Source: a virus. From it: a stretch of DNA of 37,748 bases. Every line of letters starts with the position of its first letter. Within the stretch, counting starts at the first letter, position 1. This document shows, in pieces, positions 231 to 37,748 of the stretch. The stretch lies in the IMG/VR virus record IMGVR_UViG_3300020385_000025, positions 1 through 37,748 of that record, one strand, 5' to 3'. The notes under the pieces are model-generated. The model saw nothing but the letters and a program-made list of their open reading frames with translations, ran no database searches and was not told the origin of the DNA. The translations under genes were made by a program, and so were the position numbers.

Positions 231-236
231 CTTATT
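231..236. repeat. Target-site duplication, left copy (CTTATT)
   Basis: CTTATT sits immediately before the TG terminus at 237. The identical hexamer follows the CA terminus at 37575 (37576-37581). Mu-family transposition duplicates about 5-6 bp of target, so the pair fixes both prophage boundaries. Confidence 0.88.
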
Positions 237-286
237 TGATGCAAGCCGCGAAAATTAAACACTGAAATCCGCGAAAAACGCGAAAA
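237..286 (+). repeat. Left transposon end with transposase-site cores
   Basis: Three CGCGAAAA cores lie in the same orientation at 247-254, 270-277 and 279-286. The first two are 23 bp apart, close to the 22-bp MuA site, whose known consensus also ends in CGAAAR. The stretch CGAAAAACGCGAAA (272-285) matches, from memory, part of the Mu right end. This end abuts the late-gene side, so it corresponds to the Mu right end. The pairing with 37534-37575 is what defines the terminus at 237 rather than at a nearby TG such as 263. Confidence 0.85.
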
Positions 287-6709: not shown

Positions 6710-7177
6710 CTAAATCTCCTGATAAGTACTTAAGGCGTTTTCAACACCATTAACAAATTGTTCTAGCGTTTGTGGTGCTAAGGTGCTGTTAACTGCCTCT
6801 TCCTCACTCGCTACTTTATATTCTTTAACCTCAACCTGTGCTTGGTATTGCCATACCAGTGCACTGATTGGCTTAAAATTCTCTAGAGGGTCTTTAACAA
6901 ATCGCACCTGGTGTTTAACAACACCTTTGGGCGTTAAAATATCCATCAAAAACCAGCCTGTTAGCTGTACGCCATGGTCAACAAAGCCTTCAAATAACAC
7001 GGCGTCGTCTTTTCTAAAGCGCCATGTGGCTTCCATAAATGTTGGTACGCTTAAAAACCTGCGGCGCTGGCGGGCACGGCCGCTGCTCATTTCTGTTCTT
7101 AATATGTTTGACTGTCGCTTGTAAGACACTTCTTTTAAGCGCGGTAAAGGCAGCGACAACGGGTAATTAACCATCAT
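6710..7177 (-). CDS. Minor tail protein downstream of the tape measure
   Basis: 155 residues starting at 7177 or the adjacent ATG at 7174. It overlaps the tape-measure stop by one base (TAATG), so translation is coupled. The start MVNYPLSLPLPRL and the pattern TWRF (about 50) then a Trp/Phe-rich core look like a distal-tail protein of Mu-like siphophages, but I cannot name a domain. Position after the tape measure and before the hub genes matches lambda gpM or a distal tail protein. Confidence 0.65.
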   Translation of the reverse strand: MMVNYPLSLPLPRLKEVSYKRQSNILRTEMSSGRARQRRRFLSVPTFMEATWRFRKDDAVLFEGFVDHGVQLTGWFLMDILTPKGVVKHQVRFVKDPLENFKPISALVWQYQAQVEVKEYKVASEEEAVNSTLAPQTLEQFVNGVENALSTYQEI

Positions 7178-9948
7178 TAAGTTCCTGTACGCTGTAAGCC
7201 AAATGTTGTGCTAAGCACACCTGCCGCATCGCCGCCTTGGCGTATGTCGGCCACAAAGGCTTTAATAACAAATTCACTGTCGTTGGTGCGTTCTTGCTCT
7301 ACTTGGCCACTGCGGCTGGCATCTTCTATTAGTTGCACAGTTACATTCACAACCGTATTGCCGCCTGCACTTGCTGTTTGTTTAGCTGCAGGCAATTGGC
7401 TTGGGTTGAACACACGACCACCATTGCCGCCCGCAATGTAGTTTTTACCGCCTAACTCAAGCAGCTCAGGCGTATTGCGCTCACCAATTTCAATAAGCTT
7501 ATTGCCATTGGTATAACCACCGTATTGGAAGCCTGGTGGTTTTTGTGAAGCTATAGATTTAACCTGTAAAAGCCCCATACCAGTAATAACACCTGCGGCA
7601 ATTGGCCCAGCAATAGGGCCCAATTCAAGCGCTGCAGCTGCAGCGGTATAGGTGCTCATTAACGCTTTAGCAATGTTCAATGTTTGTTGAACTTTAAAGG
7701 CTTTTTTACTGTGTTTTGCGGCTTGCCCAGCTAAGTTCTCACCAATATCTAAACCAATCGCCACGCGGTCATTACCGCTGGCACGGTCTAAATCAACAAA
7801 TTGCTGTACCACTTGGCCATAGTTGCCCGCATACTTTAATTGTTCCTGGCGTTTACGATCTTCGTGTGCGGCTTCTTCAGCTTCCAAACGACTATGAAAG
7901 CCCTGTAATTCCGCTATTTCGGTTTCGTAGCGGTCGCGGCGGGTTTGGTCTTCAAGCTGGCGTAATTCATTTTGGCGCTGTGCATCGCGTGCTGCTTTAT
8001 CGGTTGCTAACTTATCAAGGGCAGCATCACGTTGTTGGCGTAGTTGTAGCTCAATTTCAGCATAGCGGGTGCTGTCTTTGCTTTGTTCATCCAGCGCTGT
8101 GCGTGCAATATCAACGCGGCGCGTGTATGACTGACGAATACGGTCTTCTTCAGTGAGTAAATCAGCCTCAAGCTGGCTAAAGTCTTTTTCAGAATCTGCT
8201 TGCTTGTTTTTTTGGTCGATTAACTTTGCTAAATTTTGCAATTCTTGCTGCTGAGCAGGAAGCAGCTTGGCGTATTTGCCGCTGGCTATTTCATAATTTA
8301 GTTTTTCAAGCTCAGTGTTTTTACCCAATAAAGCCAGGCGTTGCTGATAATTCGCATTGGCTTTTTGAAAGTTAGCTAATTCTTTTGGGTCTTGGCCTTT
8401 CTCAGGCGCTTTACCTGCAGGCTTACCGACTACCGATTGCAGCGCAACAATTTCATTTTTTAAATCAGTAACGCGCTGTTCTGCTGCTTGCACATCGTCA
8501 AACTTGCCTTTTAAAAACGGATTATTAAAACGCTGGCGAGCTTCATCAGCTAATTGAATGGCCCCTTGTAAACGCCCTTGCGCTAATAACAACAAGCCCT
8601 GTGCTTGTTTGCCCGTTAGGTTTGCATACGGGTTTAAATCCTTACTGGCTTCTTTTAGCTTGTTAACTGAATCAGTAGCATCATCAGAGCTGCTCGCAAA
8701 TTCATAAATGCCCCATGCCGCCAACATGATCAAACCAGCTGGCCCACCAAGTAAACCCATAGTGCCACCGAGCGCACGCATCGCAACATTAGAACCACGA
8801 ACAGCCGCAGTATGAGCAACCGTAGCCGCAGTTAACCGCGCTTTAGCGGGTGCTAAAATGTTACTCGCACCCGTTAAATTAACGGTTGTTTGCACACTGC
8901 GTAAATTAGCCTGTGCCGCTGCAAGCTCTGCTGCTGTCAACTTAACGGTTTCTTGTGCAGCTCGTACTTTGGCAATCGTGTTTTTAGCAAACCCCGCAGC
9001 ACTTACAGCTAAGCTGGTCGCTAAGCGCCCACCAATAATAAGTGCTAACGCGGTTACACCTGTGGTTAAGTTATCTACTAGCTCTTGATTGGTCGTTAGC
9101 TCATTTAACACACTGGTTACCGCATCAATAGCAGGTACTAACGCAGCACTCACTGGCTGCTCAACGCGGTTAACTAATTGCTCATAGGCGGTTTCAGCGC
9201 GATTAAGTGCCCCTGGAATGGTCTGCGCCGTACGCTGTGCTGCACCTTCATAATCATCAAACGCTTTAATAAGGGTTTCTTTAAAAAACTGACTGGTAAC
9301 CTTTCCGCTAATAACCATTTGTCTAAAGCCATTAGCATTAAGGCCCGCTGCTTTATCTAAACTTTGCATTAACCCTGGCAGTGGCTCAACTACTTGTTTA
9401 AACTCTTCTGCTTGCAATACACCAGCACTAAAACCTTGCGATATACCATACATCGCTTGCCCAAGTCGGTTTGTATCAGCCCCCAACTTACTGGCTACAT
9501 CACTCATACCCTCGAGTATTTGTTTGCTTTCCTTGTCTGTAACAATACCGCTATTTCTTAAGGTTAAAATTTGGCTGTAGCTATCTGCCATGCTCGAATA
9601 CACTTTATTGTGCTCATTACTTGTTTCTATCAAGTAACGTTGCACTTGGGCGTATTCTTGGCTTGATGAGGTAAGCCCTTGCAAACGGGCATTGAGTAAT
9701 TGAATTTGGCCAATATTTTGCACTTGTTGCTGTGCAAAATTAAGTGCCATAAAGCCACCAACGGCCGTAGCTAAACCGCCATAGCTTTGCGCTACGCTGT
9801 TATTACTTGAGGCTAACGCACGATTTTGCGCAACTTGCTGCTGCGTTTGTCGCTGTAGCGAGCGTATATCGTTTGCATTAGTACGCGTACCTTGGCTAAT
9901 TGCTTTGCCATCGTACAGTACTTTTAAACTCAAATTATATCGGCTCAT
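7177..9948 (-). CDS. Tail tape measure protein
   Basis: 923 residues from the ATG at 9948; an upstream in-frame ATG at 9978 would add ten residues. Residues about 60-270 form the tape-measure N-terminal domain (GIVTDKESKQILEGMSDVA and the following VLQAEEFKQVVE). Hydrophobic stretches near 300-330, 400-425 and 775-800 and long Gln/Lys/Glu-rich coiled coils (about 450-740) are typical. The protein sets tail length; by the usual rule of thumb a protein this size implies a tail of about 140 nm. It follows the frameshifted chaperone gene, as in nearly all long-tailed phages. Confidence 0.92.
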   Translation of the reverse strand: MSRYNLSLKVLYDGKAISQGTRTNANDIRSLQRQTQQQVAQNRALASSNNSVAQSYGGLATAVGGFMALNFAQQQVQNIGQIQLLNARLQGLTSSSQEYAQVQRYLIETSNEHNKVYSSMADSYSQILTLRNSGIVTDKESKQILEGMSDVASKLGADTNRLGQAMYGISQGFSAGVLQAEEFKQVVEPLPGLMQSLDKAAGLNANGFRQMVISGKVTSQFFKETLIKAFDDYEGAAQRTAQTIPGALNRAETAYEQLVNRVEQPVSAALVPAIDAVTSVLNELTTNQELVDNLTTGVTALALIIGGRLATSLAVSAAGFAKNTIAKVRAAQETVKLTAAELAAAQANLRSVQTTVNLTGASNILAPAKARLTAATVAHTAAVRGSNVAMRALGGTMGLLGGPAGLIMLAAWGIYEFASSSDDATDSVNKLKEASKDLNPYANLTGKQAQGLLLLAQGRLQGAIQLADEARQRFNNPFLKGKFDDVQAAEQRVTDLKNEIVALQSVVGKPAGKAPEKGQDPKELANFQKANANYQQRLALLGKNTELEKLNYEIASGKYAKLLPAQQQELQNLAKLIDQKNKQADSEKDFSQLEADLLTEEDRIRQSYTRRVDIARTALDEQSKDSTRYAEIELQLRQQRDAALDKLATDKAARDAQRQNELRQLEDQTRRDRYETEIAELQGFHSRLEAEEAAHEDRKRQEQLKYAGNYGQVVQQFVDLDRASGNDRVAIGLDIGENLAGQAAKHSKKAFKVQQTLNIAKALMSTYTAAAAALELGPIAGPIAAGVITGMGLLQVKSIASQKPPGFQYGGYTNGNKLIEIGERNTPELLELGGKNYIAGGNGGRVFNPSQLPAAKQTASAGGNTVVNVTVQLIEDASRSGQVEQERTNDSEFVIKAFVADIRQGGDAAGVLSTTFGLQRTGT

Positions 9949-10596
9949 GGTGCTCTCGTGCTGCGTTGATTGCTTCAACTTCTAATACCTGAAACTTTGC
10001 AAACGTATCAGGCGTAATCTCTAACCCAGCCAGCTTCCATGCCACGGCGGCATTGCTGTAACTAATGCCGTTTCCGTCTCCTTGCCATTGTGTTGACACC
10101 GTTAAAAACGCAGTAAGGGCCAGCGCATTGCACCTAAACACATTAAATTCTTTGTCTAGGTCGAGCGCTTTAACTTGGTCAATTACATGCTTTGGTGCGT
10201 TTTGCTGAGTTAATACATCTATTAAATGGGTTGTGTCTGGGTGTTCGTCGGCTACCCAATAGCGTGCAGCCTCTAGTAGTTTTTTCTTCCGGCCGTGGCA
10301 ACCGCTACAAAATAAGCGTCAATCACAGCGGTGCGCCACCAACTAATTTTTAAACACGCAGCCAAGTTCTCCGCATTAAATGGCAATGGCTTGTCGTCTT
10401 CGCCTACAAAGTCATCACCCCAGCCCACCAAAATCTTTTTAATAAAGTCATGGTCGCCGCCATTGGCCAACTGCTCATTATTGTTGTCATCAAGCAACTT
10501 AAACTTGCCTGTAAACTCATGAGTATCACCGTCAAAAGTAAATTTAACCGGCTGCTTAACTTCTAGGTTCTGCATAGTCACGATTGAAAAAGCCAT
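9935..10596 (-). CDS. Tail assembly chaperone, -1 frameshift product (G-T type)
   Basis: Ribosomes slipping -1 on A-AAA-AAC (10279-10285), just before the TAC-TAG end of the 107-residue ORF, enter a frame that stays open to 9935. I read every codon from 10279 to 10142 in that frame and found no stop (LLEAARYWVADEHPDTT...). It then joins the segment FRCNALALTAFLTVSTQ. The fusion is about 220 residues: 106 from the first frame plus 114. This is the lambda gpG/gpGT arrangement, where the extended form loads the tape measure with tail-tube subunits. The downstream segment has no ribosome site of its own, only a GTG at 10141, and resembles DUF1799-type tail proteins. Confidence 0.82.
10273..10596 (-). 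CDS. Tail assembly chaperone, short form (G type)
   Basis: 107 residues ending GRKNY; AGGAGA lies upstream of the ATG. It starts 36 bp after the tail-tube gene ends and precedes the tape measure, the fixed place of gpG-like chaperones. Small, acidic and probably soluble. It serves as the default product; a fraction of ribosomes make the extended form. Family assignment rests on position, size and the frameshift rather than on a motif. Confidence 0.82.
   Translation of the reverse strand: MAFSIVTMQNLEVKQPVKFTFDGDTHEFTGKFKLLDDNNNEQLANGGDHDFIKKILVGWGDDFVGEDDKPLPFNAENLAACLKISWWRTAVIDAYFVAVATAGRKNY
10279..10285 (-). promoter_or_regulatory. Programmed -1 frameshift slippery site A-AAA-AAC
   Basis: In the reading frame the codons are GGA AGA AAA AAC TAC TAG. 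The heptamer A AAA AAC fits X-XXY-YYZ and is among the sequences known to slip well in bacteria. The zero-frame stop follows one codon later, and the -1 frame is open for 114 codons. I did not identify a stimulatory downstream RNA structure. Confidence 0.8.
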
Positions 10597-19429: not shown

Positions 19430-20965
19430 TTAATTTTTTAAATAACCGGTAATTCGCTTAAACAGTCCACCTGGTCTTGTTCGACCTTGTAACCGCGATG
19501 GCTGGTTTGTGCGTGACTGCTTATTTTTTGCAACCGTGGCACCTGCGGCGGGTTCGCCTTCTTCTAATGTGGCGGCATTAGCCAACACCCCAGCAACGGC
19601 TGTATCACCGTGTCGCCATTTACCATCACTGCCTTTGTCGCGGCCATCATCCATTTTGGGTTGGCCTTTTTCTAAAATCACTCGGCGGTGGTCGGCCACT
19701 ACATCTTCACTTTCAGGCACAGTAATAAACTGCCCCTCAAGCGCGGCTTTGTATTTAGGAAAGAATTGGTTGTACCAAGGGCGCGACAGCATCACGCAAT
19801 CAATGCGGCTTGGGCCATAACGTTGCATGGCTTTTTCAGCAATCGACTGGCCATTACCACGGCTATCAAACTTGCCATGAAAAAACAGCGGCACGTTATC
19901 CAGCAGGTAAAACACTATTTGCTCTTGGCAATCAAACGGAATATTACGCAGCTCAACTAAAAAAGGCGTGTGGTACTTAGTCGGGCTTTGCTGCTGCATG
20001 GGCCAAAGTACGGTTAAATCGCCACTGCGGCCAAAGTCTTGGCCAAACACAGTGCGTTGCCCAGGCATAGCATCAATTAATGGTTTTAAGGTATCGGTTA
20101 ACCAGTCACCAATAATGCGAGTGCGCTCAGGGTTCGTTACAAAGTCATCCGGTTTTTCTAGGCGGATCACTTTAGTGTCTGGGTGCTGGCAGCGCTCAAC
20201 CAATAAGCGGTTAATGTAAACACCGCCGCCCGCACTTGGGATCACATCAAGTTCTTCTGCAGCGCCATCACCATAAAAGTCATAAATACCATTGGCCCAT
20301 TCGTCTTCTAGTGCTTGGCTATACTCTGTGCCTTTCATTGCACAAATGCGTTTATATAAGCCCTGGCTTAATGCTTCTCTAAACGTTGTGCGGTAAACCT
20401 TATAAGGTTTAGTGCCTGCGCGGCACTCTTTAATTAATAGATTAAAGGGGTTTTCTTCACCGTCATGGGTGCTAATAATGCGTACCTTACCGCCCCAAAT
20501 TAATAACGCGAATGCCGCTTTTATTAGTTCATCTAGGTTATCGTGGAAGGCTGCTTCATCAATAATTACTCGCCCTTGCTTACCCCGTAAGTTAGACGGG
20601 CGCGAGCTAAGCGCGGTAATCCTAAAGCCACTGGCAAAGCGAATAACATAGGTAAGAATGTCTTTGCCTTCATCAGCGTAAATCTCTTCACTTACATCAC
20701 CGCATACTTCGTTAAAGCTTTTAGCCCAGTTGGCACAGTCGCGAATAAACTCTTCGGCCATATCCTTGTTATAACCTATGTACCAGCAATCCATGCCGCC
20801 AGCGGCTTTACTTGCAGCGGCATCAAGCACACTGGCCGCCGCCTCGCCCCAACTTAAACCAATACGACGCGACTTTTCATAAAGAATAACCGGCGATTGA
20901 TCCCACACATATTCCGCCTGATACGGTAATAAAATCGCTGTTAATTCTTCTTCATTCATAGCCAT
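19430..20965 (-). CDS. Terminase large subunit (Mu gp28-like)
   Basis: 511 residues. The ATPase site has KSRRIGLSW (31-39) as Walker A, as in Mu gp28, and GRVIIDEA with Asp136-Glu137 as Walker B. The nuclease domain has Asp310 in FGQDFGRSGD, the first metal ligand of the RNase H-like fold. The enzyme packages DNA into the prohead by headful cutting; Mu-like phages also pack a little host DNA at the ends. It overlaps the small-subunit stop by one base. Confidence 0.93.
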   Translation of the reverse strand: MAMNEEELTAILLPYQAEYVWDQSPVILYEKSRRIGLSWGEAAASVLDAAASKAAGGMDCWYIGYNKDMAEEFIRDCANWAKSFNEVCGDVSEEIYADEGKDILTYVIRFASGFRITALSSRPSNLRGKQGRVIIDEAAFHDNLDELIKAAFALLIWGGKVRIISTHDGEENPFNLLIKECRAGTKPYKVYRTTFREALSQGLYKRICAMKGTEYSQALEDEWANGIYDFYGDGAAEELDVIPSAGGGVYINRLLVERCQHPDTKVIRLEKPDDFVTNPERTRIIGDWLTDTLKPLIDAMPGQRTVFGQDFGRSGDLTVLWPMQQQSPTKYHTPFLVELRNIPFDCQEQIVFYLLDNVPLFFHGKFDSRGNGQSIAEKAMQRYGPSRIDCVMLSRPWYNQFFPKYKAALEGQFITVPESEDVVADHRRVILEKGQPKMDDGRDKGSDGKWRHGDTAVAGVLANAATLEEGEPAAGATVAKNKQSRTNQPSRLQGRTRPGGLFKRITGYLKN

Positions 20966-21540
20966 TACAAACGCTCTCCTGCAATTGCACGGCGTATTAA
21001 ATCAATATTGCCCGAGCTTAAACCAGCCGCTTTACCTGCGCTTTCAGCCTGAGCTTGTGCTTCAGCTAGCGCCTGTTTACGGGCTTTTTCTGCTATTTGC
21101 TTTTCTAAGTCGGCGTTGTGGTTTGCACTGCGTTGTAAGCGTGCAACGGCCATTACAAGGTCGTTAAGTGTGTCAGCATCAATGGGGTCTTCGCCGCCCA
21201 TTAAGCTGCTGGTTGTTTTAAACGCCGCACTTTGCAGCAAACTCATAAGCACGCGGCCAGTGTCACCAATACTGGTTAAATCACATTGTTTAGATAACGA
21301 CTCAACATAGGCTTGGCTGCGGCGTATTTCGTCAGCAATGCTCTCAATACGTTTTTTTTCACGCCACACCGTGTTGTCATCAATGCTTTCAACATCAGTT
21401 TGCACGCCAGATAGCGCCGCTAGCTCTTCGTTAATTGCATCGGCTATTTGTTGGCAGGTGTGTTGTTTGGTTGCCAGCATTTCACGTAGGTTTTCACGTA
21501 AGTGATCAGGCAAGCGCTCTATCTTATTGCCGCGTGCCAT
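20965..21540 (-). CDS. Terminase small subunit (DUF3486, Mu gp27-like)
   Basis: 191 residues opening MARGNKIERLPDHLRENL, with a HTH-like segment (TCQQIADAINEELA). That beginning is the recognisable DUF3486 pattern of Mu gp27. The C-terminal 60 residues are an Ala/Gln/Glu coiled coil for oligomerisation. It recognises phage DNA and feeds it to the large subunit. The gene is coupled by overlap to gp28. Confidence 0.88.
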   Translation of the reverse strand: MARGNKIERLPDHLRENLREMLATKQHTCQQIADAINEELAALSGVQTDVESIDDNTVWREKKRIESIADEIRRSQAYVESLSKQCDLTSIGDTGRVLMSLLQSAAFKTTSSLMGGEDPIDADTLNDLVMAVARLQRSANHNADLEKQIAEKARKQALAEAQAQAESAGKAAGLSSGNIDLIRRAIAGERL

Positions 21541-29488: not shown

Positions 29489-31246
29489 ATGGCTGACGAA
29501 ATTTTACTTGGTTTTAAGCAGCGTATCGAAAACGCGAAACATGGCGAAAAAGGTGCAATTTTAGCTGAAGCTAAACAGCGCCTAGGGCTAAGTAAAGATG
29601 CCTTTTACCGCGAGTTAGCCAAACTCGGTTACAGCAGTGGCCGTAAACCGCGTGCTGACAAAGGTAACAGCAGCCAAGACCCTGAAAGCCTAGATAAGCT
29701 TAAAGCCATGCTGGCTGTGGGTAATCGTAAAAACGGTAAGCAAATTGTTGAAACGCCCAATGCCGTAAGCATATTAGCGGCTAATGGCTGTGAGTTTAAA
29801 AGTAACAGCACGGTTAGGCGTTTACTACGTGAGCAAAACGCTACCGCAAAAATGCTTACCCAAAGCACCGCGCATGTGCAGCTGCGTAGCCTTTACCCAA
29901 ACCATGTGCATCAGGTTGACCCAAGCTTGTGCTTAATTTACTACCCGCCAGGCGGTAAAAAAGGCCGTGTGCAACGCTTTATGAGCGATGACGAGTTTTA
30001 CAAAAACAAGCCTGAAAACCTTGAAAAGATAAAAAACCTGCGCGTATGGCGCTATGTATTAACTGATCACTATTCCGGTGCGGTACGTGTGCGTTATTAC
30101 GAAAGCGCCGGTGAAACCATGGCAAACCTGTATGACTTTTTACTGTGGTGCTGGGGTTTGCACAACGATGAAAAGTGCCCAGTACGTGGCCTGCCTGACA
30201 TTTTAGTAATGGATAAAGGTTCAGCCAATACAGCGGGGGCAGTTCTTCGCGCCCTGGATGCATTAAGCGTTGATGTGATTGATCACGAAGTGGGCCGCGC
30301 ACGCGCTAAAGGCCAAGTAGAAAACGCCAACAACTTAGTTGAAAAACTGTTTGAGTCGCGTTTGATGTTTGAGCCAGTAAACAGCGTTGCGGAGCTAAAC
30401 GAGCATGCTATTGCATGGCAGAACGCCTACAACGCAGATCAAATACCGCATTACTCAGCTAAACATAGCCGCCACGGTAAAGGCCGTTATGAGTTTTGGA
30501 TGAAACGCATGGCGCACGGCAAAGTACGCGACCTACCAAGCGAAGATATTTGCCGCTGGTTACTTACCCATAAAGAAGAAACCCGCATGGTTAGGCCTGA
30601 CCTGTCGATCACGTTTGTTCACCCGGGTGTTAAGCGCAGCCAAAAGTATGCGCTTGATGGCCTTGTTGGCATTTACAAAGGCTTAAAAGTGTTAGTGCTG
30701 CCTATGGCGTTATCAGAGCGTGGCGAAGTACTGGTGTATTGCAAGCACCAAGGCGAGCAGCAAATACATACCGTTGCCCCCATTGAAACCGACGAAGCGG
30801 GCTTTGATGTAAACGGCGCGGTGATTGGCCAACAAATGAAAGCCCCTAAAGATACCTCGTTAGATATTGCCCGTAAGCAAGCCGAGCGTGGTGCTTATCC
30901 AGGCATGAGCGATGAAGAAATAGTAAAAGCTAAGCGCGGTAAAAAAGCCGTGCCGTTTGGTGGTGCGCTAGATGCACACAGCCACTTAAACGAGCTGCAA
31001 ACACCTGACTTTATGCGTGTGCGTGGTGAGCAAGTTGATACTGGCTTACAGCAACCAACCCACACATTGGCGGGCGTTGCACTGCGTAAAGCGATTGTGG
31101 CAAAGCGCGGCACACCTATTACCCCTGAAGAAAAAATCTATCTTGCTGATCGCAGTATTGATGCAAGCCAATTACCTAGCTTACTTGACGAGCTAGCAAC
31201 CTTTGACAAACCAAACCACTTAAACGTGGTTAATTTTACCCGTTAG
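29489..31246 (+). CDS. A: Transposase A (DDE, rve-type)
   Basis: 585 residues. N-terminal DNA-binding helices (about 1-50, QRLGLSKDAFYRELAKLGYSSGRKP) precede the catalytic core. The acidic triad is Asp144 (HQVDPS), Asp242 (VMDKGSAN) and Glu278 (GQVENANN). The 35 residues between the last two make it a DD35E enzyme; MuA has a longer gap (D336, E392). A beta-barrel-like region (about 370-450) and a basic C-terminus follow. It cuts and joins the TG/CA ends at 237 and 37575 and makes 6-bp staggered joins. B lies 242 bp downstream with a small gene between. Confidence 0.95.
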   Translation: MADEILLGFKQRIENAKHGEKGAILAEAKQRLGLSKDAFYRELAKLGYSSGRKPRADKGNSSQDPESLDKLKAMLAVGNRKNGKQIVETPNAVSILAANGCEFKSNSTVRRLLREQNATAKMLTQSTAHVQLRSLYPNHVHQVDPSLCLIYYPPGGKKGRVQRFMSDDEFYKNKPENLEKIKNLRVWRYVLTDHYSGAVRVRYYESAGETMANLYDFLLWCWGLHNDEKCPVRGLPDILVMDKGSANTAGAVLRALDALSVDVIDHEVGRARAKGQVENANNLVEKLFESRLMFEPVNSVAELNEHAIAWQNAYNADQIPHYSAKHSRHGKGRYEFWMKRMAHGKVRDLPSEDICRWLLTHKEETRMVRPDLSITFVHPGVKRSQKYALDGLVGIYKGLKVLVLPMALSERGEVLVYCKHQGEQQIHTVAPIETDEAGFDVNGAVIGQQMKAPKDTSLDIARKQAERGAYPGMSDEEIVKAKRGKKAVPFGGALDAHSHLNELQTPDFMRVRGEQVDTGLQQPTHTLAGVALRKAIVAKRGTPITPEEKIYLADRSIDASQLPSLLDELATFDKPNHLNVVNFTR

Positions 31247-31257
31247 GAGATACCACC

Positions 31258-31491
31258 ATGGGAAACAGTAAAAAGCACCAACTACGCAAAGCCGAACATG
31301 CACCGTTTAACGTTGTGTCTGGCCGTACTCGCACCGTGTATATGGTGCATGTGAAGTTGGTTGATTCAAAACGATGGACGGAACTAGCCGACGAAAAAGG
31401 CCAGTACATTTTTAATGACGAGCAAGAACGCGATGAGTTTTTTAATCGCGTGCTAGCCGCTTATCCAACGCAATACAGGAAGGTGGCATGA
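31258..31491 (+). CDS. Small protein between A and B, unknown
   Basis: 77 residues, GGAG upstream. Basic start (GNSKKHQLRKAEH), then beta-strands (RTVYMVHVKLVDSKRW) and a helix near the end (NDEQERDEFFNRVLAAYP). It overlaps the B gene by 4 bp. Not recognised. Confidence 0.68.
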   Translation: MGNSKKHQLRKAEHAPFNVVSGRTRTVYMVHVKLVDSKRWTELADEKGQYIFNDEQERDEFFNRVLAAYPTQYRKVA

Positions 31492-32771
31492 GCGAACCCA
31501 ACGAGCATAAAAAGAAGTTAAGCCGAAAGACCTGGAAGATAAAGCTAGGCCGCATGATGGCTAACCGTGGCATTACCTATAAACAGTTAGCGCAGTGGTT
31601 AAACCTAAATGCCAACGTTAAAACCAGCGAGGCCACGCTTAACAAAATAGTCACTAAGTCTGACTGGCCAAAGCGCACGCTACCGCGTGAAGCACTTAAA
31701 GCAGGCTTAGAAAAGTTCGCAATTGAAAACGGCTTAATTGTTGAGAGCAACGTTTACCAAATATTTTTGGATGATCCACATAACAACGCGGTGACCACAG
31801 GCAGCCAGTGGAAACATGCACATAAAACCAAACGCCTGATCATTGGTCATGAAGACTCAATTAACGGGCACATAGTCATTGAATTACCGGAGGCACAAAT
31901 GCTTACACCAAGAGCAAGACAACATTTTAAAATTTTTAACGACCCATGGGATAACGAAATTTACAGCATTGACCATGTGTATTTAGGCGCTCAGCAGCGC
32001 TATGTGGTTGAGTCAATTATCAACTGTGCAAAGGTAGGTACCTTAATGGCATTGGTCGGTGAGTGCGGCAGCGGTAAAACTGTAATGATGAACTTTACCA
32101 TGGAAGAAATACGCGCTAAGCACCCTAATATTCGGGTTATTCGCCCTGCCCGAATTGATAAAAAGAAAATTGGTTCAAGCTCGATTAGTGAGGCTATTTG
32201 TCGTGAGCTGAACATTTCTAAGCTGCCACGTAGTAGCGAAGACCGTGATTCGATTATACGTGATGAACTTACCCGCAGCTGTAACGCTGGCAACCGCCAT
32301 ATTTTACTTATTGACGAAGGCCACCGCCTAGACGAAGAAACCATTAAGCAATTAAAGGTGCTGTGGGAGCTAAGCGAAGGGTTCACTAAGTTGATTGGTA
32401 TTTGCATTATCGGCCAAACCGAGTTGGACAAAGTTTTAAGTTCAATGAACGTGCGCGAATTTGCATACCGCGTAAATAAGCTAAATGTGCCGCCCCTTGG
32501 TACTGAGCTTAAAGACTACATTGATCACAAACTCAAAGCCGCGAACTTGGTACCTGAGAAAGTGATTGAACCCGCCGCGATTGAAAAAATGCAGCAGGCG
32601 CTGCGTGGTATTCGCAAGTTTGGCCGCACTACTGGCCGCCCTGATGAAACCGTTGATATGAGTTACCCACTCAACGTAAACACGCTGATGAAAAACCTGA
32701 TGAACGAAGCAGCCGACCTAGGCGAAGACCGCATTACGGCAGAACTTGCCGAAGAATACGTGAGGGTTTAG
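31488..32771 (+). CDS. B: Transposition protein B (AAA+ ATPase)
   Basis: 427 residues. Walker A is GECGSGKT (191-198), Walker B is ILLIDEGH (Asp276, Glu277). The N-terminus carries a HTH (about 15-75, RMMANRGITYKQLAQWL) as in MuB, which uses it to bind DNA and A. It forms ATP-dependent filaments on target DNA, stimulates A and gives target immunity. The protein is longer than MuB (312 residues), with an insert between HTH and ATPase. The C-terminal 100 residues resemble the DNA-binding end domain. Confidence 0.93.
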   Translation: MSEPNEHKKKLSRKTWKIKLGRMMANRGITYKQLAQWLNLNANVKTSEATLNKIVTKSDWPKRTLPREALKAGLEKFAIENGLIVESNVYQIFLDDPHNNAVTTGSQWKHAHKTKRLIIGHEDSINGHIVIELPEAQMLTPRARQHFKIFNDPWDNEIYSIDHVYLGAQQRYVVESIINCAKVGTLMALVGECGSGKTVMMNFTMEEIRAKHPNIRVIRPARIDKKKIGSSSISEAICRELNISKLPRSSEDRDSIIRDELTRSCNAGNRHILLIDEGHRLDEETIKQLKVLWELSEGFTKLIGICIIGQTELDKVLSSMNVREFAYRVNKLNVPPLGTELKDYIDHKLKAANLVPEKVIEPAAIEKMQQALRGIRKFGRTTGRPDETVDMSYPLNVNTLMKNLMNEAADLGEDRITAELAEEYVRV

Positions 32772-36613: not shown

Positions 36614-36740
36614 ATGGCAAAAATTTACTAAAAATTCCCTGTCGTTTTTTTATTCAGGTGATAAATTAATTCAAATAACTTAAACTGATCTTGGCCGCAT
36701 GAACAGCAGCTGTATCAACTTAAAATAAATGGAACTATAT

Positions 36741-37442
36741 ATGTTTTTGTCAAAATCAAATTGGAAATATTCAGTAGCTTTAACATCTGCGCTAGTACTT
36801 AGTGGCTGTGCTTCACCAGACTATAATTACCTACCTGAAACAACTCAAATCAGTGAACCTGCAATAGGTAGCATCAATACAGCCTACGTTGGCGATGTAA
36901 TGCTTAGACAGGGTAAATACTCTGAACATGATGCCATTTACCTACCTGAAAAAGTAGAAGTTAGCTGGGCTTACGATCTGCATGCTGGTTACTACATTAA
37001 AAAAGGTGAGGATAAAGACACTGAAACTTATATGCCAAGTAACGACAATGAAGGCGGTATGATTGATAAAGCAGCCCTTGCTGATCCTTGGAGAGCGGTA
37101 ATGGCTTATAAAGAAACACAAGAGCTATGTGTGATCACAGCATTTAATGCAGCTTCATGTACAGACAATGCAAACTTTGAAAGGCGTAAAAAACCGATTT
37201 TGACACATGACTCTTTCCAACAAACATTAATATATAGCGGGAAGGTAGGTAGTAAAATTAATATTGGCTATAGAGAGTTTTCAAATAGCTTGGCTCGTCC
37301 TGCATTTAATAACGATGTTGAGTATGATCTAGATTCTTCAAATGTGATTGGGTATAAAGGTGCTAGAATTGAGATTATCGAAGCTACTAACGAACATATA
37401 AAATATAAAGTAATTCAGAACTTCAATAGAGCAGCTCTTTAG
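36741..37442 (+). CDS. Outer-membrane lipoprotein, lysogenic-conversion candidate
   Basis: 233 residues from the ATG at 36741; GGAA precedes it, while the ATG at 36729 has no site. A signal peptide (SNWKYSVALTSALVLSGC) ends in the lipobox LSGC with Cys23. No Asp follows the Cys, so export to the outer membrane is expected. The mature part is probably beta-rich (SINTAYVGDVML...YIKKGEDKDTETYMP) and of no family I know. It lies beyond the mor terminator and before the transposon end, so it has its own promoter and is off the lytic programme. Surface lipoproteins of prophages often block superinfection; here that is inference. Confidence 0.78.
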   Translation: MFLSKSNWKYSVALTSALVLSGCASPDYNYLPETTQISEPAIGSINTAYVGDVMLRQGKYSEHDAIYLPEKVEVSWAYDLHAGYYIKKGEDKDTETYMPSNDNEGGMIDKAALADPWRAVMAYKETQELCVITAFNAASCTDNANFERRKKPILTHDSFQQTLIYSGKVGSKINIGYREFSNSLARPAFNNDVEYDLDSSNVIGYKGARIEIIEATNEHIKYKVIQNFNRAAL

Positions 37443-37450
37443 AACAAACA

Positions 37451-37497
37451 ATAGCATTTTGAACTTTCACTATTTTAAAGACTGTTTAAAATGCTAT
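37451..37497. repeat. Inverted repeat after the lipoprotein gene
   Basis: ATAGCATTTT (37451-37460) and AAAATGCTAT (37488-37497) are perfect complements 27 bases apart. Inside them ATTTTAAA/TTTAAAAT (37472-37479, 37485-37492) makes a smaller stem. It could end lipoprotein transcription, though the T-run is poor. Confidence 0.5.
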
Positions 37498-37530
37498 CCC
37501 ACTAAATCCCAAGTCATCCCCGCTTATCCC
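37496..37530. repeat. Four ATCCC repeats at exact 10-bp spacing
   Basis: ATCCC occurs at 37496, 37506, 37516 and 37526, so all four lie on one face of the helix. The array ends 5 bp before the inner transposase-site core of the right end. Likely a binding array for a protein that bends or caps the end, or a cluster of sites for a regulator; function unknown. Confidence 0.7.
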
Positions 37531-37533
37531 ATA

Positions 37534-37575
37534 TTTTTCGCGAATTTTATTATCTAGTTTTCTTAACTTGGATCA
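37534..37575 (-). repeat. Right transposon end with transposase-site core
   Basis: Read inward on the minus strand it begins TGATCCAAG and has CGCGAAAA 33 bases in (37535-37542), exactly the offset of the second core at the left end. Thirty-one of 42 positions match the left end without gaps. Confidence 0.88.
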
Positions 37576-37581
37576 CTTATT
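37576..37581. repeat. Target-site duplication, right copy (CTTATT)
   Basis: Identical to 231-236 and directly adjacent to the CA terminus. Confidence 0.88.
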
Positions 37582-37646
37582 CTTTTACTTTTACCTGATG
37601 CCTTTTACCTTTCAGCTGCATTTTCACTTTTCTGCAGACGTAAAAA

Positions 37647-37670
37647 AGCCCGACTATTGCTAGTCGGGCT
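37647..37670 (-). terminator. rRNA operon terminator
   Basis: AGCCCGACTA and TAGTCGGGCT pair perfectly around a 4-base loop. On the minus strand a run of T follows. It lies about 12 bases after the 5S rRNA 3' end. Confidence 0.9.
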
Positions 37671-37681
37671 TTCTCAATTTG

Positions 37682-37748
37682 GAGCCTGGTAATGTCCTAC
37701 TTTCACATAGCAAATGCTACACTATCATCGGCGCTGTTTCGTTTCACT
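37682..37748 (-). rRNA. rrf: 5S rRNA, 3' part (truncated by window edge)
   Basis: The minus strand reads AGTGAAACGAAACAGCGCCG, then GATGATAGTGTAG, and ends AGTAGGACATTACCAGGCTC, matching the 3' half of gammaproteobacterial 5S rRNA. About 67 of roughly 120 bases are present; the 5' part lies beyond the window. The exact 3' base is uncertain by one or two. Confidence 0.93.

Follow-up and report, generated by a model that had tools for sequence, protein, structure and literature searches.

The phased array and its prophage

What is the role of a run of identical five-base words, helically phased at exact 10-bp steps, close to one end of a transposable prophage? The stretch of DNA that raises this question, hereafter the window, is one IMG/VR record of 37,748 bases, with a B3-type transposable prophage at positions 237-37575. 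The features of a B3/Mu-type phage are all present, namely a MuA-type transposase, a MuB-like ATPase, TG...CA ends and a short target duplication. The features needed here are the following.

231-236, plus strand: target-site duplication CTTATT, left copy
237-286, plus strand: left (late-gene) phage terminus, TGATGCAAG; three CGCGAAAA sites present, array absent
7177-9978: tape measure
19430-20965, minus strand: large terminase (phrog_2, E 5.5e-32)
20965-21540, minus strand: small terminase, Phage_Mu_Gp27 (PF11985; Pfam E 3.5e-23), the proposed reader of the array
29489-31246, plus strand: MuA-type (B3-type) transposase (phrog_310, E 4.1e-74; no Pfam family match)
31488-32771, plus strand: MuB-like transposition ATPase (phrog_296, E 2.8e-43)
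37496-37530, plus strand: phased array of four ATCCC units at exact 10-bp steps, GGGAT when read inward from the phage end
37535-37542, minus strand: CGCGAAAA, likely transposase site of the right end; the same word occurs at the other phage end
37563-37575, plus strand: right (early-gene) phage terminus, ...TTAACTTGGATCA, common to the window, L004-L007, L011, L014 and L045, with divergence right after
37576-37581, plus strand: target-site duplication CTTATT, right copy

The right boundary of the prophage was set by comparison. Seven relatives (L004, L005, L006, L007, L011, L014 and L045) match the window up to ...GGATCA and then diverge, and the phage end is therefore at position 37575. Consequently, the array lies inside the phage, 45 bp short of its early-gene end. 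Target duplications of 6 bp were also read in two of the relatives (CAAAAA in L006/L239 and AACGCA in L045/L240). The final gene ahead of the array (36729-37442) belongs to phrog_1353, which has no assigned function, and in L011 the stretch preceding the array looks different from that of the window, with the array itself being kept.

The four ATCCC units start at positions 37496, 37506, 37516 and 37526. They represent the sole 5-mer that is repeated four times in 10-bp phase across the whole window, and when the window was shuffled 60 times with dinucleotides preserved, no four-fold 5-mer arose at a constant spacing of between 6 and 15 bp. A previous sequence-only reading had described the four units at exact 10-bp steps correctly, as well as the start at 37496 and the adjoining TTTTCGCG core, which is the plus-strand reading of positions 37535-37542 (the minus strand reads CGCGAAAA). 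However, the array proper stops at 37530 rather than extending to 37549, and its distance from the core is 4 bp instead of the claimed 5 bp. The claim that the two ends are asymmetric was correct, as no counterpart of the array is present among the three CGCGAAAA sites of the left end (237-340).

Occurrence of the array at the ends of other phages

A comparison with related prophages, which had been suggested along with the first description, revealed the array at the same end in both close and distant relatives. All seven close relatives with a right junction, as listed above, carry the four-fold ATCCC array. In the close relative L013, the transposase of which is 85% identical, no array was found in the 5.5 kb past the transposase, and the phage end was not located. 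Several distant prophages, found by their transposase, have a phased array that agrees with that of the window in both phage end and orientation. Units of (A/G/T)TCCC in 10-bp phase are present at this end in B3, JBD25, Ps59, Bise and Mu; in Mu they occupy nucleotides 33-67 of the left end. The nearest unit is 44-45 bp from the terminus in the window and Bise, as it is at the left ends of the B3/Beetrevirus phages B3, JBD25 and Ps59, which have the same array; this distance is 39 bp in a Vibrio phage and 32 bp in Mu. Compared with B3, the window phage differs in its transposase (34% identical) and in residing beside an rRNA operon. Arrays were also recognized by eye in HS6, which belongs to a third transposase group, and in martha (19.1 and 16.4 with the scoring profile described below), while the units of AFS-2018a are 20 bp apart (10.3). 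Both AFS-2018a and martha, which are gp27 phages, thus score below the profile threshold.

The array was missing at the ends of D3112, RcapMu, RcWaterboi, AP2 and KS10, and none was seen in OXA48phi1.1 and VW-6B, the records of which may not start at the phage end. Among the IMG/VR contigs found with the Mu transposase (L119-L198), 36 of 80 scored at least 16, and none of the 30 scored contigs found with the D3112 or KS10 transposase exceeded 14.6. In both sets many contigs stop before the phage end, so that an absent array means little there. The first scans for the array had used exact ATCCC pairs and ATC words; one match from these scans, in L101 and on the wrong side of the transposase, was rejected as a chance hit. 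No array was detected by unit score in L063, L068, L072, L074, L079, L082, L084, L095 and other distant loci with undefined ends. The loci are related by transposase and come from assemblies of spirochaetes, geobacteria, KSB1 and Nitrospirae; the genomes have PF11985.

Unit sequence and helical phase

To describe the unit, 51 arrays (29 B3-type and 22 Mu-type) from loci with both an array and gp27 within reach were aligned in register, four of them (L109, L113, L062 and L050) being placed by hand, and a transposase-similarity filter reduced this set to 36. TCC was present in 116 of the 144 units, and in 14 of the 36 arrays all four units contained it. Among these 36, four exact ATCCC units were found in the window alone. 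The spacers between units vary and hold little information, except for a purine after units 1 and 3.

At period 10, a unit score of at least 17 was reached by 26 of 104 representatives, a set that excludes KS10-type loci and regions of less than 1200 bases. Among the other periods tried on the forward strand of the same representatives, those between 6 and 19 yielded no such score and period 20 yielded two. In the controls, reversed sequence yielded none, and the opposite strand one at period 7 and two at period 12. The weights of the unit score were fixed after arrays had been seen, and the period, reversed and opposite-strand controls use the same weights.

Four G-runs on the GGGAT strand, with loops of up to 7 nt, could conceivably fold into a G-quadruplex, and by inspection the window array does fit the pattern G3N1-7. 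Only 5 of the 36 arrays fit it, however, and a quadruplex has no need of a fixed 10-bp step. We therefore rejected this explanation, which we regard as having next to no chance of being correct.

After correction for the transposase, variation among the arrays did not covary with that of gp27 (partial Mantel r 0.036, p 0.27; 36 phages), in a test of low power because the unit varies little. Towards the transposase there was a slight relation (Mantel 0.19), with p 0.0005 under free permutation and p 0.25 when permuted within types. This slight leaning, together with the adjoining CGCGAAAA site, would be in line with the array being a set of extra binding sites for the MuA transposase that make the phage ends unequal. 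MuA binding sites measure about 22 bp, for which a spacing of 10 bp is too tight. Moreover, a TCC-like unit persists across differing terminal sequences and transposases, and the window has no array at its other end. Extra transposase sites are therefore an improbable explanation.

The array and the small-terminase family

Supporting a connection with packaging, PF11985 was present in all seven scanned phages with a whole or partial array, which were the window phage, JBD25, Bise, KP12 (the record of which stops inside the array region), Mu, B3 and Komp. By contrast, the array-less phages D3112, RcapMu and KS10 have a DUF1804 small terminase according to Pfam, and the small terminases of RcWaterboi and AP2 match that of D3112 in tblastn. 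In a transposase tree of the named phages the DUF1804 phages form one clade, and this contrast therefore counts as a single event.

A case-control comparison was made among 299 genomes of one phylum, in which PF11985 was found in 32 genomes and PF08822 in 36 (34 above the curated cut-off). Loci were picked by the terminase alone, 20 of 41 gp27 places and 20 of 49 DUF1804 places, mostly with contig room, and the flanks of every place, to a maximum of 20 kb in either direction, were searched with a scoring profile that had been trained elsewhere, on the 36 arrays. A profile score of at least 18 was obtained at 11 of 20 gp27 loci versus none of 20 DUF1804 loci (Fisher p = 1.5e-4). The 11 matches scored 18.1 to 37.4, and relative to the transposase all had the side and strand that were expected. 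When only loci with a transposase and room for the phage end were considered, the numbers were 11 of 17 versus 0 of 9 (p 0.0024). The counts for these Fisher tests were made by hand. Some of the loci are related to one another, with G247 and G284 each contributing two prophages, and G002, the sample centre, was known beforehand for such phages. With the profile, the DUF1804 loci scored 17.7 at best, and a value of 18.2 came from one reversed stretch of G214, which shows that a threshold of 18 is near chance for odd stretches. With a cruder unit score at period 10, 9 of the 20 gp27 loci scored at least 17.7 and no DUF1804 locus exceeded 16.6, while the control periods gave up to 16.9, and 20.0 in one DUF1804 stretch (L329).

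Nine of the 20 gp27 loci remained under the strict threshold, seven of them with weak or variant arrays that were accepted post hoc and two being limited by the contig. The contigs of G082 and G246 stop before the expected place of the array. When at most 7 kb upstream of the transposase was searched, the top matches in G244, G131, G216, G052 and G310 scored 8.3-11.3 and resembled weak arrays; the same upstream search in nine DUF1804 loci gave 1.5-6.8 on the array strand, the opposite strand reaching 10.1. A weak array was recognized by eye in G002 (15.5). The top match of G204 (4.8) fell elsewhere, and a run of TTCGC-like units ranked second (2.0). A motif-free search for the period-10 maximum arrived at the array in G131 (0.52), G216 (0.65) and G204 (0.78), and off the array in G244, G052 and G310. 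Since these maxima were 0.43-0.63 in the DUF1804 loci, only G204 and perhaps G216 stand out.

Two of these loci have units of a different sequence at the expected place of the array. About 5.7 kb upstream of the transposase, L300 (G204) contains five TTCGC-like units at 10-bp steps, and about 1.3 kb upstream of the transposase L273 (G131) contains TCAC-like units, also at 10-bp steps. Possibly, these runs represent specificity shifts of the same reader.

The transposases of Mu and the window phage show no BLAST similarity (E 0.27), while those of Mu and D3112 are detectably related (E 2e-19), yet D3112 has no array. The terminase label, mapped on a tree of 42 transposases, has to change three times, and only one of these changes is a clear swap. 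This concerns two sister transposases (support 100/99), where G043 has gp27 and an array scoring 28.3, whereas G066 has DUF1804 and no array, its best score being 8.8 over 40 kb and 6.8 in the 7 kb upstream. That the terminase and transposase belong to one prophage in G043 and in G066 was assumed from their nearness. In addition, G052, with gp27 and a weak array (8.3), is placed inside a clade otherwise made up of DUF1804 phages (100/99). Evidence that the array follows the terminase thus comes from two swaps, one clear and the other weak, and the array appears to go with the small-terminase family rather than with the transposase.

These data bear on the two functions that the sequence-only reading had offered. 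A role in end synapsis has become less likely, as the array is common to phages with BLAST-dissimilar transposases, is absent in D3112 and tracks the small-terminase family, although a part in DNA bending is still conceivable. The same findings lend no support to a host-protein array. A related idea is that the phased GGGAT DNA serves as an architectural spacer of the transpososome, which bends, alone or with HU, and so brings inner transposase sites to the terminus, like HU between Mu L1 and L2. The Mu array presumably lies between the L1 and L2 transposase sites, in the same stretch of DNA as the HU site in this spacer; HU binding is not known to be tied to the type of small terminase. The phasing would suit bending, and the L1-L2 spacer was deleted as 'HU site' in PMC3820752. 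However, this deletion had only a small effect on the Mu domain, in an assay of neither transposition nor packaging. Furthermore, the transposable phages D3112, RcapMu and KS10 do without an array, and the array spans dissimilar transposases and follows the terminase in the sister pair. Altogether, an architectural spacer seems unlikely.

A candidate pac site

As the array recurs at the same end in Mu and in distant relatives and goes with a packaging protein, it is probably a packaging-start mark. We propose, with a probability of roughly three in four, that the array is the core of the pac site, of which one 5-bp unit per helical turn would be bound by a ring of the gp27-type small terminase. 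The ring would expose outward-facing DNA-binding motifs about one helical turn apart, and each turn of the DNA, bent along the ring, would present one unit. The bound array would mark the early-gene end of the integrated phage, upon which the large terminase would cut the flanking host DNA and package inward. The window phage carries its array at the end that also bears it in Mu and B3, and its packaging would presumably start there as well.

The pac site of Mu is known from genetics, and in 1985 it was reportedly mapped near the left end. The window phage and Mu agree in their phased GGGAT-type units, in the phage end that bears these and in the small-terminase family; what is added here is a candidate helically phased core common to gp27 phages. 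In the titles, abstract openings and some passages that our literature search covered, subscription papers being outside it, no phased array was described as the Mu pac, and an earlier description may exist. According to PMC5977238, the left end is where packaging of Mu begins, with 50-150 bp of host DNA being taken along, and the left host DNA measures 31-36 bp in the D3112 group and RcapMu.

The spacing of the units can be compared with that of known small terminases. In the model of SPP1/SF6, as outlined in part of PMC4737164, DNA wraps around the small terminase, the pac site contains repeats, neighbouring helix-turn-helix motifs (HTHs) of the ring are about one turn of B-DNA apart, and one SF6 domain covers 3-5 bp. 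By analogy, a 5-bp unit every 10 bp fits this geometry. The individual HTHs of SPP1/SF6 have little sequence specificity in binding, whereas the unit core described here is strongly conserved and phased. The predicted structure of gp27 is all-helical (pLDDT 77.6). Only weak matches to this model were found in the PDB (best E 2.7), none of them convincing among solved small terminases, and a profile search with gp27 for solved relatives gave one weak match (E 0.07).

Conceivably, the array is instead a site for another phage or host protein that is inherited with the gp27 terminase module, as linkage alone cannot tell gp27 from its module neighbours. Its place at the packaging end nevertheless points to the terminase, and another protein is a very improbable reader. 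Returning to gp27 as the reader of a pac core, a bolder version is that the family reads pac sequence-specifically in a nucleosome-like manner, with one 5-bp word per turn around the ring, and that the words shift together, as in the five TTCGC-like units of G204 and the TCAC-like units of G131. This would amount to a readable packaging code across Mu-like phages, a notion that we hold tentatively and find slightly more doubtful than plausible.

DNA binding by small terminases was called unclear and controversial in a passage of PMC9611059. A conserved array with one unit per turn, which is present in Mu itself and tied to one terminase family, offers a simple substrate for this question. The array could also allow the prediction of packaging ends in prophages and metagenomes.

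Insertion beside rRNA operons

A separate observation concerns the insertion sites. In the wider clade of the window phage, 10 of 12 right junctions are located just 3' of the 5S gene or terminator of an rRNA operon, which the early-gene end faces, although some of the metagenome contigs in this count may sample one population. These are the junctions of the window (37576-37748), L004, L005, L006, L007, L011, L045, L047, L051 and L055; L014 is inserted elsewhere and L046 gave no call. The transposases of this group are 44-100% identical, the distances to the operon differ, and so do the three 6-bp duplications that were read.

The evidence for the operon varies between the junctions. L055 is a complete chromosome, in which Rfam identified 5S, 23S and 16S beside the phage, and in L051 it identified 5S. 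At the Rfam gathering score no 5S was called in the window, L011, L045, L005, L004, L006, L007, L014, L046 and L047. A model derived from L055, L051 and L045 recognized a cut-off 5S in the window, L011 and L045, and the cut-off 5S of L005 was recognized through its 3' end. The contigs of L004, L006 and L007 stop at the terminator, so that their adjacency to the operon rests on the common terminator sequence, and the flank of L047 is the sequence found 3' of a 5S gene in the same genome. Together, these junctions suggest an oriented target preference near rRNA operons, which would be unusual for Mu-type phages.
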